Below are positions 2,634 to 61,937 of a DNA stretch of 64,000 nt, in pieces. Each line of letters opens with the position of its first letter. The stretch's first letter is position 1. Location of the stretch: the NCBI RefSeq assembly GCF_026011735.1, contig NZ_BRVN01000003.1:124001-188000 (forward strand). Reading direction: 5' to 3'. The notes beneath the pieces were generated by a model that saw only the letters and a program-made list of their open reading frames with translations, had not been told where the DNA came from and did no database searches. The position numbers were made by a program, and so were the translations under genes. The stretch is from Dietzia sp. NCCP-2495. Its GTDB lineage: Bacteria > Actinomycetota > Actinomycetes > Mycobacteriales > Mycobacteriaceae.

Positions 2634-3329
2634 ATGAACACTTCGTCGTCCCAGGGACGTGGCCTGACCATCGCGGTGATCGTCCTCGTGGCGCTCGTCG
2701 CCATGATCGCGGCGGTCGGAACGGTGGTGGTGTCGCAGCGGACCTACGGGTCGAGCGAGCGCACGATGAGTGCCAAGACCCAGGTCGCGGCGGGATCCGA
2801 CCACACGGACCCGGCGGCAGGCCTGACCATCCGGGTCCCGGCCGGCTGGGAGGCGCAGTCCGGTCCGCTGCCGTTCGGCACCACCGCACTGATGCCTGAG
2901 GGGGCGTCTGATTCAGGTGGTGCGAGCGGGATCGTGTTCCTCGGCGCGCTGACTCCGGAGATGCTCGCCGGACAGGACGTCAGCAACGAGCAGGCCGCGT
3001 TCTCGCTGGCCACGGGCATCGGCCAGGCGGTTTTGCCGGTCCCGGGCAGCCCCACCGAGGAGCGGGTCGACGAGATCTCGAGCCGGGTCGGCGACGGTAC
3101 GGCCCTGTCCTTCCGGATCATCCCGTCGATCCAGCAGCCGATGGTCGGTCCCGAGGGCGCGCTGGTCTACTCGGCGGTCGTCGGCGAGGGCGATTCGCGG
3201 TTCTGGCTCACCTACATCGCGACCCCGGGCGACGGCAGCATGGATTCCCCGCGCGCGGAGTGGGCCGACGAGATCGTCGAGCGTTTCGAGCTCGCCGACG
3301 TACCGGCCGAGGTCGGCACCACGACCTGA
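2634..3329 (+). CDS. single-pass membrane-anchored hypothetical protein
   Basis: 231 residues. A short polar N-terminus is followed by one hydrophobic helix (about residues 10-32) and a soluble, extracytoplasmic-looking domain rich in proline, glycine and acidic residues. There is no lipobox cysteine after the helix, so it is an anchored rather than a lipidated protein. I recognise no catalytic motif; the shape recalls the small secreted or anchored proteins common in mycobacteria. The ATG at 2634 is chosen for its -10 hexamer and because earlier in-frame codons overlap alkB. The gene ends just before a strong bidirectional terminator. Confidence 0.7.
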   Translation: MNTSSSQGRGLTIAVIVLVALVAMIAAVGTVVVSQRTYGSSERTMSAKTQVAAGSDHTDPAAGLTIRVPAGWEAQSGPLPFGTTALMPEGASDSGGASGIVFLGALTPEMLAGQDVSNEQAAFSLATGIGQAVLPVPGSPTEERVDEISSRVGDGTALSFRIIPSIQQPMVGPEGALVYSAVVGEGDSRFWLTYIATPGDGSMDSPRAEWADEIVERFELADVPAEVGTTT

Positions 3330-3364: not shown

Positions 3365-3396
3365 GAGCTCGGCCCTCCCGCGGGAGGGCCGGGCTC
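3365..3396. terminator. bidirectional terminator hairpin
   Basis: A 16-bp stem with one mismatch, centred on the palindrome ccctcccgcgggaggg. It lies between the convergent genes ending at 3329 and 3421 and can serve both. Confidence 0.8.
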
Positions 3397-3420
3397 AGAT
3401 CTCAGGTCAGCCGGAAAAGG

Positions 3421-4041
3421 TCAGAGCGTGGTGACGACCTCGTCGTACTCGAGGCGCGGGAGGCGATCGAACCAGGCGCCCTCGGCGGCGGGCTTGCCGA
3501 TGTTGATCGCGACGAGCACGCGGTGGCGGCCGTCGGGGAAGAACTCCTTCGAGATCGCCTCGGCGTCGAAGCCGGTCATCGGGCCGGCGGCCAGACCCGC
3601 GGCGCGGATGCCGAGGATCGCGTAGCCGATCTGCAGGCCGGCGTTGAGCTCGGCGGTGCTGGCGCGGCTGGCCTCGTCGCCGTCGAACAGGTCACGGGCG
3701 CCGGGGAAGTGCGGGAAGAGCTTGGGCAGCTCGTCGTGGAAGTCCACGTCTGCGGCGAGCAGCGCGACGGCAGGGGCGGCGGCGGTCTTGGCCTGATTTC
3801 CCTCGGCGAGGAGCGGGACGAGGCGGGCCTTGGCCTCCTCGGACCGGAGGACCACGACGCGCAGCGGCTGGTTGTTCATGGAGGTGGGCGCCCACTTGAC
3901 CAGGTCGTAGATGGCCTCGAGCTGTTCGTCGGTCACCGGCTCGTCGGTGAAGGCGTTGGCGGTGCGCGCCTCGCGGAAGAGCAGGTCCTGGGCGGCCTCG
4001 TCGAGCTGCAGGGCGGTGCGGGAATCCAGAGAAGTTGTCAT
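3421..4041 (-). CDS. nitroreductase-family protein (malonic semialdehyde reductase-like)
   Basis: 206 residues from ATG 4041. In-frame TTG 4050 and ATG 4047 are alternatives; none has a clear ribosome site, so the start is uncertain. The sequence is a compact FMN-dependent nitroreductase: an N-terminal F-EARTANAFTDEPV segment, PTSMNNQPLR (FMN-binding S-N-QP motif), and a central NAGLQIGYAILGIRAAGL helix followed by GPMTGFD. This pattern matches the RutE-like subgroup annotated as malonic semialdehyde reductase, which reduces 3-oxopropanoate to 3-hydroxypropanoate with NAD(P)H. No rut pyrimidine-degradation genes are nearby, so the physiological substrate is open. Confidence 0.75.
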   Translation of the reverse strand: MTTSLDSRTALQLDEAAQDLLFREARTANAFTDEPVTDEQLEAIYDLVKWAPTSMNNQPLRVVVLRSEEAKARLVPLLAEGNQAKTAAAPAVALLAADVDFHDELPKLFPHFPGARDLFDGDEASRASTAELNAGLQIGYAILGIRAAGLAAGPMTGFDAEAISKEFFPDGRHRVLVAINIGKPAAEGAWFDRLPRLEYDEVVTTL

Positions 4042-23454: not shown

Positions 23455-23916
23455 TCAGGCGGCGCGGCGCTCGGCCTCGGCCGCGATGTCGGCCAGGTCC
23501 TGCTCCATGGCCTTGCGCGTGGCGTTGAGGGCCACCTTGCCCATCAGGGCCGTCACCACGCGGGAGATCGCCGGGGCGTGCGTGGTCTCGGCGCCGAATT
23601 GCATGGACAGGGTGGTGCCGCCCCCGGCGTCTGCCGACAGGGTGAAGACGGTCTTGTACTCAGTGCCGCCGTTCTCGGCGACGATCGTCGTGGAGTGGGG
23701 TGCGTCCGCGGACTGCACCATCATCTCCTCGGTCGCCTTCATGCCGAACATCTTTCGCGTCTCGCGCCAGCGAAAGCCCGGCTCGTAGACGCCGGCGGTG
23801 AGGATCTCGACGGCCGTGACCCCGCTCAGCGTGCGGTGGGCGTTGGGGATGTCGGTGAGGACGTCCCAGACGGTGTGGGGGTCGGCGGCGACGTGGCGGG
23901 ACAGGTCGAGCTGCAT
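23455..23916 (-). CDS. SRPBCC (polyketide-cyclase-like) family protein
   Basis: 153 residues. START/SRPBCC fold signature: an N-terminal DLSRHVAADPHTVWDVLTDI strand-helix, a central GFRWRETRKMFG, and a long amphipathic C-terminal helix. Such proteins bind hydrophobic ligands; the ligand is unknown. ATG 23916 follows a TACACT -10 element by 7 nt. No clear operon partner. Confidence 0.75.
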   Translation of the reverse strand: MQLDLSRHVAADPHTVWDVLTDIPNAHRTLSGVTAVEILTAGVYEPGFRWRETRKMFGMKATEEMMVQSADAPHSTTIVAENGGTEYKTVFTLSADAGGGTTLSMQFGAETTHAPAISRVVTALMGKVALNATRKAMEQDLADIAAEAERRAA

Positions 23917-24045: not shown

Positions 24046-24056
24046 GTCAGAACCGG

Positions 24057-24084
24057 GGCTGCCGGGCGCACTGGCCCGGCAGCC
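24057..24084 (-). terminator. strong terminator of peptide gene A
   Basis: Perfect 11-bp stem ggctgccgggc / gcccggcagcc with a 6-nt loop, 6 bp beyond the stop codon. A second hairpin follows. Back-to-back hairpins suggest a highly transcribed gene. Confidence 0.8.
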
Positions 24085-24090
24085 GCGAGG

Positions 24091-24249
24091 TCACTCGACC
24101 AGCGAGCCGGTGGCGCTCTTGACGAAGTCACCGATGGTGTCGAGGATGTCGCCGAAGATGCCGGTCGCGCCGTCAACGACATCGGAACCGGTGTTCACGT
24201 TGGAGGAGCCGTTGGCCAGGCCGGGGAGGAAGCTCTGAATGGAACCCAT
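24091..24249 (-). CDS. small acidic peptide A (52 aa), candidate envelope/porin-type peptide
   Basis: 52 residues starting MGSIQSFLPGLANGSSNVNT. No signal peptide and no cysteine; rich in Ser, Gly, Thr and Asp, with an amphipathic C-terminal half (GDILDTIGDFVKSA). It is paralogous to peptide B at 24629: both share ANG(x2-4)NTGS followed by a run of small residues and spaced glycines. AAAGGA lies 7 nt before ATG 24249. Size, composition and absence of a signal peptide recall the PorA/PorH cell-wall channel peptides of corynebacteria, but sequence identity to them is not evident; function is inference. Promoter, CRP-like site and terminators are listed separately. Confidence 0.7.
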   Translation of the reverse strand: MGSIQSFLPGLANGSSNVNTGSDVVDGATGIFGDILDTIGDFVKSATGSLVE

Positions 24250-24363
24250 GTCGTGGTCCTTTCGTCGTGGGCGGCGCGAGGGTGCGCCGCTCCCTGTGCG
24301 GTGGAGTCCATGTGAACCCACTGGGCTGTGAACCCACTGGGGTCATCCGGATCTCACGACTGG

Positions 24364-24369
24364 ACGTTA
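24364..24369 (-). promoter_or_regulatory. -10 TAACGT of peptide gene A
   Basis: Minus strand. The block tccgTAACGT is repeated exactly upstream of peptide gene B. A GATGAC hexamer sits 18 nt upstream as candidate -35. Confidence 0.6.
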
Positions 24370-24471
24370 CGGATGGGACGACGCATCGTCATCCATCGTC
24401 TGGGAATCCAACCGCGAAAACGCGTGAGGCGCACTTATAATCGCTGCTAACGCCACTGCCGGATCTTCACG

Positions 24472-24487
24472 TGTGAATCAGCTCACA
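24472..24487. promoter_or_regulatory. CRP/GlxR-type site TGTGA-N6-TCACA
   Basis: Perfect match to the TGTGA-N6-TCACA consensus of CRP-family regulators (GlxR in corynebacteria). Located 223 bp upstream of ATG 24249 and about 100 bp upstream of its -10. Confidence 0.7.
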
Positions 24488-24548
24488 AAGGTGGTGTGAC
24501 CCACGGATTCCCGCCGGCCGGGTGCGGGTCCGGCGGCGGGAAATGCAC

Positions 24549-24584
24549 GACGCCGGCACCCGCCCGGAGGCGGATGCCGGCGTC
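24549..24584 (-). terminator. terminator of peptide gene B
   Basis: Perfect 10-bp stem gacgccggca / tgccggcgtc with a 16-nt loop, 45 bp beyond the stop codon. Confidence 0.75.
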
Positions 24585-24628
24585 AGCTCAACCGGTCAGC
24601 GGGCTAGGCCGCTGGGGGGTTGTTCAGC

Positions 24629-24790
24629 TCAGAGCGAGCCGACGATGTTGCCGACCGAGCCGACGACGGTGCCCGCAACGTCCTCGGCGGCGGTGGAGCC
24701 GGTGTTGAGGAAGCCGTTGGCGGCGGTGGAGCCGGTGCCGATGAGGTCGGTGAAGAAGCCGACGACGCCGTTGAAGATCTTCTCGATCAT
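24629..24790 (-). CDS. small peptide B (53 aa), paralogue of peptide A
   Basis: 53 residues starting MIEKIFNGVVGFFTDLIGTG. Lacks a signal peptide, cysteine and tryptophan; alternates hydrophobic and small residues, ending VVGSVGNIVGSL. Shares ANG-NTGS and the glycine spacing with peptide A. GGAAGGAT lies 7 nt before ATG 24790, similar to the AAAGGACC of gene A. The first half is more hydrophobic than that of A, so the two could form a hetero-oligomer as PorA/PorH do; this is inference from size, pairing and expression signals. Confidence 0.7.
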   Translation of the reverse strand: MIEKIFNGVVGFFTDLIGTGSTAANGFLNTGSTAAEDVAGTVVGSVGNIVGSL

Positions 24791-24918
24791 GGTGATGATC
24801 CTTCCGTTCGTGCTCGCGACACACTCTGCGTCGCGACGACTGTGGTTGAGCCCCAAGGGGACTCAATGTCAGGTCCCCCGTGAGGGACTCGCCAAGTTCA
24901 TCTCGAACTCACGGCGGA

Positions 24919-24924
24919 ACGTTA
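24919..24924 (-). promoter_or_regulatory. -10 TAACGT of peptide gene B
   Basis: Minus strand, in the block tccgTAACGT, identical to that of gene A. A GGTGAT hexamer is 18 nt upstream, similar to GATGAC of gene A. Confidence 0.6.
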
Positions 24925-25026
24925 CGGAGACGGGGCCTCGGAATCACCCTGAGGCCGGGTTTGGCCCCCGATTTCCGTTCCGCCGATACTTAGGTTCGCT
25001 GCATAAACGGCATTTCTGTTCTTATC

Positions 25027-25042
25027 TATGAAACGAATCACA
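25027..25042. promoter_or_regulatory. CRP/GlxR-like site TATGA-N6-TCACA
   Basis: One mismatch to TGTGA-N6-TCACA. It lies 237 bp upstream of ATG 24790, nearly the same distance as the site of gene A, and 104 bp upstream of argJ, so it could serve either. Confidence 0.55.
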
Positions 25043-25132
25043 AACGGGTCACGATCGCATGTATTGGCGGTGTCGCCGGGGCTCTGCGGGGACCACCGAG
25101 GGCCCGTCGATGACATCCGTCGCGGCGGCGGG

Positions 25133-25138
25133 GGACAA
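25133..25138 (+). promoter_or_regulatory. candidate -10 (GACAAT), leaderless
   Basis: 7 nt before ATG 25146; keeps A2 and T6. Confidence 0.35.
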
Positions 25139-25145
25139 TAGGGAC

Positions 25146-26378
25146 ATGACTGACTCGACCGACCCCTCCGCGTCGATCCCGCTTCCCGCCGGATTCCGAG
25201 CCCACTCGGGTGCCGCGGGACTGCGCGAGGACGGTGACGATGTCGTCGTCGTCGTCAACGACGGCCCGACACCCTCCTCCTCGGCGGTCTTCACCCGGTC
25301 CCTCTTCGCCGGGCCCTCGGTGGTCCTCAGCCGCGCCAACGCGGCGAGCGGCCGTGCGCGTGGAGTCGTGGTGGTGGCCAAGAACGCGAACGTCGCCACC
25401 GGCGAGCAGGGCATGGCCAACGCGCGCGAGGTCCTCGACCGCACCGCGGCGGCCGTCGGGGTCCCGGCCGACGACCTGCTCATCGCGTCCACCGGCGTGA
25501 TCGGCCGCCAGTACCCCATGGACCTGCTGCGCACCCACCTCGACGGGCTCGCCGGCGAGGAGTTCCGCGCCGACGCGCGGGCCGTTGCCACCGCGATGAT
25601 GACCACGGACACGCACGCCAAGACGTCGGTGAGGGGAATGACGACGACGACGGGGACCGCTGCCCGGGTCGTGGGCATCGGCAAGGGCGTCGGGATGATC
25701 GAACCCGACATGGCCACGATGATCGCGGTGATCCTCACCGACGCCGCCGTGGAGCCCGGCGTGCTGGACGCCGCGTTCAGGGCCGCGGTGGACGACACGT
25801 TCAACTGCCTGTCCGTCGACACGGACACCTCCACCTCGGACACCGCGATCGCGCTCGCCAGCGGTGAGGCGGGCGAGGTGGCCGAGATCGAGCTGCGGGC
25901 GGCCCTGCGCGAGGTGTGCCTGGACCTGACCCGGCAGCTCGCACGCGACGGCGAGGGGGCCACGAAGCTGCTCACCGTCGAGGTGACGGGCGCGCGCGAC
26001 CGCGACCAGGCCAAGCGCGTCGCCAAGGCGATCCTCAACTCGCCGCTGGTCAAGACCGCCGTGCACGGCGCCGACCCGAACTGGGGGCGCGTGGCCATGG
26101 CGATCGGAAAATGCCACGACGACACGGACATCGACCCCGAGCGCGTACGCATCGTCTTCGGCGACCTCGAGACGTACCCCGCGTTCCCCGGCGAGGCCGA
26201 GCTCGAGCGGCTCACCGAGATCATGCGGGCCGAGGAGGTCACCATCGCGGTGGATCTCGGTGTCACCGACAGCGGCGCCGACGGTGAGGCCGGCGGCAGT
26301 GCGGACGGGTCCTGCACCGTCTACGGATGCGACCTCACGCGTGAGTACATCTCGATCAACGCGGACTACACGACGTGA
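25146..26378 (+). CDS. argJ: ArgJ-type glutamate N-acetyltransferase
   Basis: 410 residues. ArgJ transfers the acetyl group from N-acetylornithine to glutamate (and may use acetyl-CoA) in the cyclic arginine pathway. The self-cleavage/nucleophile region is GVGMIEPDMATMIAV, near residue 184; the threonine of MATM is kept, while the usual Asn before it is Asp. Other family segments: TTDTHAKTS, SVDTDTSTSDTAIALASG, and HGADPNWGRV. The gene stands alone: no argC, argB, argD or argF is nearby. The next gene overlaps its stop by 4 nt. Confidence 0.85.
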   Translation: MTDSTDPSASIPLPAGFRAHSGAAGLREDGDDVVVVVNDGPTPSSSAVFTRSLFAGPSVVLSRANAASGRARGVVVVAKNANVATGEQGMANAREVLDRTAAAVGVPADDLLIASTGVIGRQYPMDLLRTHLDGLAGEEFRADARAVATAMMTTDTHAKTSVRGMTTTTGTAARVVGIGKGVGMIEPDMATMIAVILTDAAVEPGVLDAAFRAAVDDTFNCLSVDTDTSTSDTAIALASGEAGEVAEIELRAALREVCLDLTRQLARDGEGATKLLTVEVTGARDRDQAKRVAKAILNSPLVKTAVHGADPNWGRVAMAIGKCHDDTDIDPERVRIVFGDLETYPAFPGEAELERLTEIMRAEEVTIAVDLGVTDSGADGEAGGSADGSCTVYGCDLTREYISINADYTT

Positions 26379-61455: not shown

Positions 61456-61664
61456 CGTGAGCATCACTAGTCACACAAGCAACTTGCGCAACTTTTCAGT
61501 ATGTTGCTGTCGGAGGTTTCCGGGGCCGGCCAGCCGGTGTGATGTGCGAGATAGAAAGTCACGGATTCACAACAACCTGTAACACGACGCCTCACCAGTG
61601 CGATTGCCGACTTTTCGCGCCTACCCTTGTATGCGTACCAATCAGCAAGTCGGGAGTGCCCCTC

Positions 61665-61937
61665 ATGACCGATGCAGTCGACCTCTCCACGCCGCGATTC
61701 CGTCAGAGCCTCGTCACCGAGATCGACGGGCCGGAGGATGACCCGTTCTTCGAGGTGCTCGTCGAGGAGACGGTGATCCTCGACGAGGACGGTGCGGGCC
61801 GTGGCGCGCCGGAACTGCGCCTGCGCACGGGGGTCGACGGGATCGTCCTGAACGACCGCGATCAGATCCTGCGACTCCAGGCCGTCATCAATCGCGCCGT
61901 CAACCAGTGGCGGGACTCCGCATCGCACCTGCCCTGA
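61665..61937 (+). CDS. small conserved-looking hypothetical protein
   Basis: 90 residues from ATG 61665, with GGGAG upstream. Acidic, soluble, no helix or signal peptide; a middle part LVEETVILDEDGAGRGAPELRLRTGVDGIVLNDRDQI looks like a beta-rich fold. No family recognised. It stands alone between the lysozyme and pentapeptide-repeat genes; a TACCCT hexamer (61622-61627) may be its -10. Confidence 0.6.
   Translation: MTDAVDLSTPRFRQSLVTEIDGPEDDPFFEVLVEETVILDEDGAGRGAPELRLRTGVDGIVLNDRDQILRLQAVINRAVNQWRDSASHLP

Follow-up and report, generated by a model that had tools for sequence, protein, structure and literature searches.

Gene Organization of pepA and pepB

In the window, i.e., the whole 64-kb stretch of Dietzia sp. 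NCCP-2495 DNA analyzed here, two ORFs for small peptides, designated pepA and pepB, lie in tandem on the minus strand between argJ (ORF 25059-26378, plus strand) and a Polyketide_cyc2/SRPBCC gene (23455-23916, minus strand).

24629..24790, minus strand: pepA, ATG start, 53-residue signal-less peptide with two TGS motifs (S21, S32), matched in 12/23 Dietzia genomes at E≤1e-3
24799..24805, minus strand: ribosome binding site of pepA, GGAAGGA (from sequence)
24091..24249, minus strand: pepB, ATG start, 52-residue signal-less peptide with GS at S15 and TGS at S22, matched in 13/23 Dietzia genomes at E≤1e-3
24257..24263, minus strand: ribosome binding site of pepB, GAAAGGA (from sequence)

The first-pass annotation had described two tandem minus-strand small-peptide genes with good ribosome binding sites, and both points held: the ORFs occupy these coordinates, have orthologues in other Dietzia, and carry GGAAGGA and GAAAGGA 7-8 nt ahead of the respective ATG codons. 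Neither peptide contains a Cys residue, and no signal peptide was seen in either by eye, as had also been noted. The proposed common motif ANG(x2-4)NTGS was present in the window peptides (ANG-FL-NTGS and ANG-SSNV-NTGS), but among orthologues only its (T)GS part was invariant and ANG varied. The invariant residues were G20, S21, G31, and S32 in 12/12 pepA orthologue rows, and G14, S15, T20, G21, S22, and D26 in 15/15 pepB rows; several pepB peptides terminate in GS.

The matches in 12/23 (pepA) and 13/23 (pepB) Dietzia genomes, obtained in single-sequence searches with the own genome counted, argue that both ORFs are genuine genes. The pair adjoins argJ in 11/23 genomes (G000, which is the present genome, G002, G003, G004, G006, G008, G009, G010, G011, G017, and G020), a single member was found in others such as G012, G013, and G016, and several Dietzia assemblies end at or near the argJ locus. 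Three genomes (G001, G003, and G009) have a third in-line copy. At loci L063 and L065 (G001 and G003), this copy encodes 46 residues (MFSDILNQLGWGS..), and its GTAAC..GAT match, which may be coincidental, encloses a CRP-like palindrome.

The two peptides had been taken for paralogs, and the profile comparisons bore this out at the level of a modest homology. The pepB profile scored pepA at 9.3 bits, a value attained by 13/5000 shuffles. With 400 shuffles, the pepA profile gave the floor value (p 0.002) for 5/6 pepB sequences and 0.005 for the sixth, while the pepB profile reached the floor for 2/6 pepA sequences and gave 0.005-0.032 for the other four. The likeness between pepA and pepB is read as better than chance, consistent with paralogy, with the reservation that the shuffles preserve nothing but composition and that convergence is possible among Gly/Ser-rich helices.

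With a superfamily profile (E≤1e-3), at least one member of this TGS family was detected in 22/23 Dietzia genomes, which carry multiple unlinked TGS genes each. One further locus of the present genome (L161, contig C26) holds a divergent TGS pair at 3391-3573 (plus strand, 60 residues) and 3004-3153 (minus strand, 49 residues), which recurs in several other Dietzia and has no sigma-D motif within 260 nt. A 32-residue similarity to pepA in a Pseudomonas cedrina contig (L062; E 3e-6 among candidate stretches only) is probably due to chance.

Transcription Signals

Upstream and downstream of the two genes, the following elements were recognized.

24900..24925, minus strand: sigma-D-type promoter of pepA, GTAAC-N18-GAT, matching the published consensus; exact in 12/13 orthologues
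24345..24370, minus strand: sigma-D-type promoter of pepB, GTAAC-N18-GAT; exact in 5/15 orthologues, degenerate or absent in the others
25027..25042, minus strand: CRP/GlxR-like palindrome upstream of pepA, one mismatch (from sequence)
24472..24487, minus strand: CRP/GlxR-like palindrome upstream of pepB, exact TGTGA-N6-TCACA (from sequence)
24434..24439, minus strand: TATAAG, possible -10 element of a second, CRP-linked pepB promoter (similar letters in the aligned leader column)
24549..24584, minus strand: perfect 16-bp hairpin after pepA, probable terminator (-35.6 kcal/mol)
24054..24087, minus strand: hairpin after pepB, probable terminator (-27.6 kcal/mol)

The sigma-D promoter of Corynebacterium glutamicum has been reported to consist of -35 GTAAC(A/G) and -10 GAT separated by 17-18 nt (PMC6338062, PMC11588781), a spacer of 18-20 nt being stated as well (PMC11588781), and its regulon to include porA, porH, and cmt1 or other mycoloyltransferases (PMC11175481). 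The promoter block that the first-pass annotation saw before both genes was identified as GTAAC-N18-GAT, and both window genes carry GTAAC(A/G) and GAT exactly, with a 17-18 nt spacer. In an alignment of 13 pepA and 15 pepB leaders, the GTAAC and GAT of pepA stood at a fixed distance with varying letters between them. Exact sites were found within 260 nt of the start in 12/13 pepA and 5/15 pepB leaders, the orthologues not being independent samples; several of the other pepB leaders retain GTAAC or GTAGC but not GAT.

These sites are rare. GTAAC-N16-19-GAT occurred three times in the window, two of them being those of pepA and pepB, and the reversed motif was absent. The third, a GTAAC-N18-GAT at 61579-61604 (plus strand), lies upstream of a small ORF that runs to 61937 and has an in-frame ATG near 61665, some 60 nt past the site. 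In the 3.69 Mb genome, GTAACG-N17-GATG occurred six times and its reversed control not at all, and one of the six sites is at sigD. The motif was present at 20/21 Dietzia sigD loci, the remaining one (L267) not being read by the patterns, and about 250 nt before the groEL2-linked mycoloyltransferase gene in 17/17 Dietzia genomes with a readable gene start (among 19 with the locus; G009 and G022 left out). From its sequence context, GTAAC-N18-GAT appears to behave as a sigma-D site in Dietzia.

As for the other genome-wide sites, one (L246) lies inside a fadD32-like gene before a pks13-like gene, another (L243) before a FabD-like gene (names assigned by eye), and a third (L242) within an ORF of no assigned kind or right where it starts. 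At the Dietzia sigD loci (L247/L248-L268), the -10 GAT shares letters with the apparent sigD ATG, so that either a more downstream true start or a second promoter is probable. Exact sites were absent from the 260 nt upstream of the groEL2-linked Dietzia peptides (0/56) and the locus II TGS peptides (0/15), and from the upstream regions of Corynebacterium porH genes (0/7; the other seven of the 14 Corynebacterium regions scanned belong to an unrelated gene). MtrA was considered as the reader of the block and rejected, since the Dietzia MtrA motif, reported as a TCG-rich 21-nt element, does not describe the block whereas sigma-D does.

The TGTGA-N6-TCACA-type palindrome is a candidate binding site for a CRP/GlxR protein. 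With up to two mismatches it was found 211-252 nt upstream in 12/13 pepA leaders and 217-238 nt upstream in 14/15 pepB leaders. Single two-mismatch palindromes are weak (p 0.04-0.10 versus shuffles), the constant position being the better argument; with at most one mismatch the window contains only the two at pepA and pepB, although 21/100 shuffles also had two.

Since GAT sits 109 nt (pepA) and 95 nt (pepB) from the start codon, the leader from the sigma-D site would be approximately 85-105 nt. A long leader, as had been claimed, would thus apply if the upstream CRP-type promoter is used, and not from the sigma-D site. On the 3' side, hairpins of -30 kcal/mol or stronger follow pepA in 8/11 orthologues when only even lengths are considered, and the other three gave -33.8 each when odd lengths were allowed; pepB is followed in 13/13 orthologues by a hairpin at -24.5 or stronger. 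These energies are raw values in GC-rich DNA; the pepA stems pair perfectly or almost perfectly. As promoter elements and a terminator-like hairpin flank pepA and pepB individually, the two are probably separate transcription units, in line, in silico, with their earlier description as monocistronic genes followed by strong hairpins.

Codon Use and Sequence Change

Of the 35 four-fold codons of pepA, a fraction of 0.89 end in C, and of the 31 in pepB, 0.71, compared with 0.53 in argJ and 0.65 in both groEL2 and the neighboring SRPBCC gene. Between the same six genome pairs, pepA showed fewer synonymous changes than argJ (pS 0.04-0.25 versus 0.30-0.42) and more amino acid changes (pN 0.16-0.23 versus 0.06-0.10); pepB compared with eight genomes gave pS 0.27-0.50 and pN 0.22-0.32. 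We read pepA as a gene under strong codon selection, and hence as highly expressed, with a fast-changing sequence. The codon case for expression of pepB is weak, its value being little above that of the SRPBCC neighbor.

Relatives Outside Dietzia

A homologue search beyond the genome had been proposed as a check, and it returned, besides the Dietzia members, homologues in Nocardia. A Dietzia-only pepB profile run over 401 genomes of the family (E≤0.1) matched 95, of which 19 were Dietzia; the other 76 had weak scores, many in long frames, and most of these were taken as chance. The best non-Dietzia match (L169, Nocardia) has 77 residues (E 1.2e-4 per genome, approximately 0.05 over the whole search) and comprises a clear Sec signal peptide, judged by eye (MRAFSGILASVAIAGAVALAAAPAQA), followed by a TGS module. 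In a second type (L172; E 0.00135 per genome), several TGSA repeats accompany a signal peptide, likewise recognized by eye. The pepB profile scored them at 27.5 and 20.8 bits, respectively, values reached by 0/5000 shuffles each, while the pepA profile recognized neither L169 nor L172 (74 and 3641 of 5000 shuffles as high). With both included, the superfamily profile matched 22 Dietzia, 10 Nocardia, and one g15 genome among the 401. Against the Dietzia-only profile, four further L172-type relatives, found with a profile already containing L169 and L172, scored 12.7, 7.2, 11.3, and 14.8 bits; 0, 3, 0, and 0 of 3000 shuffles, respectively, reached these values.

Nocardia also encodes signal-less TGS peptides of 35-44 residues, three of them in tandem in G202 and G175. 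One 38-residue member has a 100% match in Nocardia farcinica, by which genus g22 was recognized as Nocardia. A mixed TGS profile, for which three Dietzia pepB sequences were combined with five signal-less Nocardia peptides and the module of L169, matched 85/98 Nocardia genomes (E≤0.01). In 25/30 upstream regions, taken from the 30 loci that scored highest with this profile, GTAAC-N18-GAT occurs near position -80 relative to the main TGS peptide (reversed control 1/34); all 25 have N18, with spacer letters different from those of Dietzia. The motif was found before neither the other Nocardia paralogues (0/4 regions) nor the Sec-bearing Nocardia genes (0/8). The coupling of a sigma-D motif to a signal-less TGS peptide, as judged from these upstream regions, exists in two genera and not in every relative. 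In loci L182-L211, the strongly conserved signal-less Nocardia peptide has 38-39 residues, and a gene that looks cold-shock-like by eye lies nearby in some of them.

Predicted Structure and Database Searches

In pepA, the best 18-residue helical moment reached 0.48 (p 0.003 versus shuffles), and in pepB 0.51 (p 0.002); by the same measure, PorH was significant and PorA was not (p 0.136). AlphaFold2 predicted for pepB one helix spanning residues 8-51, with a mean pLDDT of 75.7 and a pTM of 0.38 on a two-row alignment containing one orthologue. Both peptides are thus predicted to form an amphipathic α-helix of the PorA/PorH kind. Their net charge is negative, and a search of PDB sequences returned matches only at E 0.32 and 0.86.

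No family in Pfam or NCBIfam matched pepA or pepB above cut-off. The closest resemblance was that of pepB residues 34-44 to delta-lysin (Pfam E 0.039, NCBIfam E 0.032), scoring 13.7 bits against curated cut-offs of 25 (Pfam) and 65 (NCBIfam). The peptides share a short amphipathic helix with delta-lysin and the phenol-soluble modulins, and differ in falling below every curated cut-off, in the match covering only 11 residues, and in belonging to another group of organisms. That they are released as surfactant or antibacterial peptides, like the phenol-soluble modulins, seems improbable to us: apart from this short match and the negative charge, the envelope is where the sigma-D-type promoters and the Sec-bearing relatives would place them, although both are compatible with release too.

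The peptides are also small, hydrophobic, and in tandem, as a type I toxin or another cytoplasmic-membrane peptide might be, and the downstream SRPBCC gene (23455-23916) matches the Rv0910 toxin model below threshold, at 32.7 bits for a cut-off of 100. We consider this reading very unlikely indeed. The first-pass annotation had named homology to a toxin–antitoxin family as an observation that would count against its interpretation, and none was found above cut-off in Pfam or NCBIfam and none in PADLOC; no known toxin family or partner gene was recognized. PHROGs gave two weak pepA matches only (E 0.021 to a family of no known function, and 0.23 to a tail tape measure protein), pepB had no match in phage and plasmid records, and the only Rfam match at the locus was sub-threshold and on the opposite strand. 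The conserved locus and the codon bias of pepA favor steady expression instead. The toxin–antitoxin, phage, plasmid, and RNA-element readings were dropped after these searches.

We found no description of pepA or pepB in the openly licensed PubMed Central literature on Dietzia. The terms "porin" and "small protein" were absent from the main text of a Dietzia vesicle proteome paper (PMC8027190), and passages of a Dietzia alkane transcriptome paper (PMC12472514) contained nothing bearing on the peptides.

Comparison with PorA/PorH and Other Mycolata Channels

The earlier interpretation had been a porin-like envelope function, drawn from PorA and PorH, with the remark that there was no clear sequence identity. 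The remark was confirmed: with the pepB profile, 323/5000 shuffles scored as high as PorH and 9/5000 as high as PorA (7.8 bits, suggestive only), the counts for the pepA profile being 109/5000 (PorH) and 164/5000 (PorA). The lack of similarity to PorH is weak evidence, because one PorH query recognized PorH in only 7/81 Corynebacterium genomes. Direct membership in PorA/PorH was rejected on these profiles and shuffles, leaving a resemblance in kind.

This resemblance comprises a length of 40-60 residues, an acidic character, a predicted helix, the lack of a signal peptide (by eye), and a sigma-D-type promoter, porA and porH being reported members of the sigma-D regulon (PMC11175481). The differences, besides the non-significant PorH and marginal PorA (pepB profile) matches, concern position and transcription: pepA and pepB adjoin argJ instead of groEL2, and form two apparent transcription units in silico, whereas porH-porA is an operon. 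In Corynebacterium, porH-porA has been reported to sit downstream of groEL2 (PMC5944148), as was also read in Corynebacterium loci L175-L181. In the present genome, that position (L087) is taken by two other signal-less peptides, followed by a mycoloyltransferase-like esterase.

L087 (G000 contig C5), 4026-4181 and 4296-4457: tandem signal-less groEL2-linked peptides of 51 and 53 residues

Relatives of the second were found in 19/23 Dietzia genomes, and both types often stand in tandem, the longest array, in G020, counting six genes. Against them, the pepB profile was marginal for the second type (2/5000 shuffles) and gave 274/5000 for the first; a comparison with 400 shuffles gave the same picture for PorA/PorH and the groEL2-linked peptides. 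This array is a better positional candidate for PorA/PorH than pepA/pepB.

The reported mycoloylation site of PorA is S15, which lies in the short linker joining two helices (PMC11927696). In an ungapped start-to-start comparison with C. glutamicum PorA, the invariant S15 of pepB falls on this residue (5/18 identities; 11/15 pepB rows), although the four short pepB rows gave one identity and the coincidence was noticed post hoc. Together with the size, the missing signal peptide, the amphipathic helix, the marginal PorA score, and the existence of single-peptide pores of 37-40 residues (PMC5944148), this match could mean that pepA and pepB are true channel formers, the helices of which oligomerize into a water-filled pore, alone or together, like PorA/PorH or the homo-oligomeric PorACur. 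The absence of PorH similarity, the better-placed groEL2-linked array, and the assignment of the published Dietzia channel to another superfamily (PMC9233653) speak against it, and we regard the channel reading as a real possibility that falls somewhat short of even.

That published channel, from Dietzia maris, has been placed in the MspA superfamily (PMC9233653, PMC4901239). MspA-type proteins (PF09203) resemble the peptides in being cell-wall channels of mycolata, the reported D. maris channel included, and differ from them in kind, being β-barrels of approximately 20-kDa chains with a signal peptide, as described, whereas pepA and pepB have 52-53 residues and are predicted to be helical. 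No match to PF09203 was found in either peptide using Pfam.

Proposed Envelope Function

Of the porin-like reading, the analogy in size, missing signal peptide, Ser/Gly-rich helix, and regulon stands, whereas sequence membership in PorA/PorH does not. An envelope location is supported, at the sequence level, by the sigma-D-type promoters and Sec-bearing homologues, and pepA and pepB probably represent an undescribed outer-envelope peptide family. As a whole, the explanation that we consider likely is that they form an undescribed family of "TGS peptides", signal-less, controlled by sigma-D, located in the mycolate outer membrane, and O-mycoloylated. The genes, the family, the promoter match, the terminator-like hairpins, and the Sec-bearing relatives are supported at the level of sequence; sigma-D dependence, signal-independent export, acylation of the TGS serines, and mycomembrane insertion are what we infer beyond this.

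In the proposed mechanism, RNA polymerase with the envelope-stress factor sigma-D would transcribe each gene as a separate mRNA, probably with the help of a CRP/GlxR-type activator, the pepA mRNA probably being abundant. The peptides would then leave the cell by the signal-independent route of PorA, PorH, and ProtX, and a mycoloyltransferase belonging to the sigma-D regulon would O-mycoloylate them at one or more of the invariant TGS serines. Finally, the amphipathic helical peptides would insert into the mycomembrane as homo- or hetero-oligomers. The invariant TGS serines are candidate acylation sites: the mapped O-mycoloylation sites are reported to favor Ser among Gly, Ala, and Ser (PMC11066868). 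As they follow no strict consensus, TGS by itself predicts no acylation.

PorH and ProtX have been reported to be mycoloylated near the last residue, ProtX at its penultimate Ser (PMC5310785), and ProtX to be induced when sigma-D is active (PMC11175481); linkage of ProtX to the cell wall has been reported as well. In small size and missing signal peptide, and in their putative O-mycoloylation and sigma-D control, pepA and pepB recall ProtX as described, and several pepB peptides end in GS. Alternatively to pores, they might be non-channel, ProtX-like lipopeptides of the mycomembrane, with a role in tethering or spacing the outer membrane or in covering its surface. The several unlinked TGS genes per genome, the fast amino acid change of pepA with its few synonymous changes, and the behavior of ProtX are in favor of such a role, for which we have the same tentative confidence as for the pore.

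Whether the TGS peptides constitute a third class of mycolata outer-membrane proteins beside the MspA barrels and the PorA/PorH type, common to Dietzia and Nocardia, under sigma-D control in either genus, and comprising Sec-dependent and signal-less forms, appears to us evenly balanced. If so, one lineage with both forms would provide a natural experiment on the signal-less route of mycomembrane export. The passage of the signal-less PorA, PorH, and ProtX through the cytoplasmic membrane and into the mycomembrane has been described as unsolved (PMC12632848), and a second peptide family, lacking clear sequence kinship with these three but with a sigma-D-type promoter in two genera and Sec-tagged cousins, would add new export substrates and a means of comparison. 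More proteins would also count as likely residents of the outer membrane in genera for which the MspA-type porins are those described, with genes so short that annotation may miss them.
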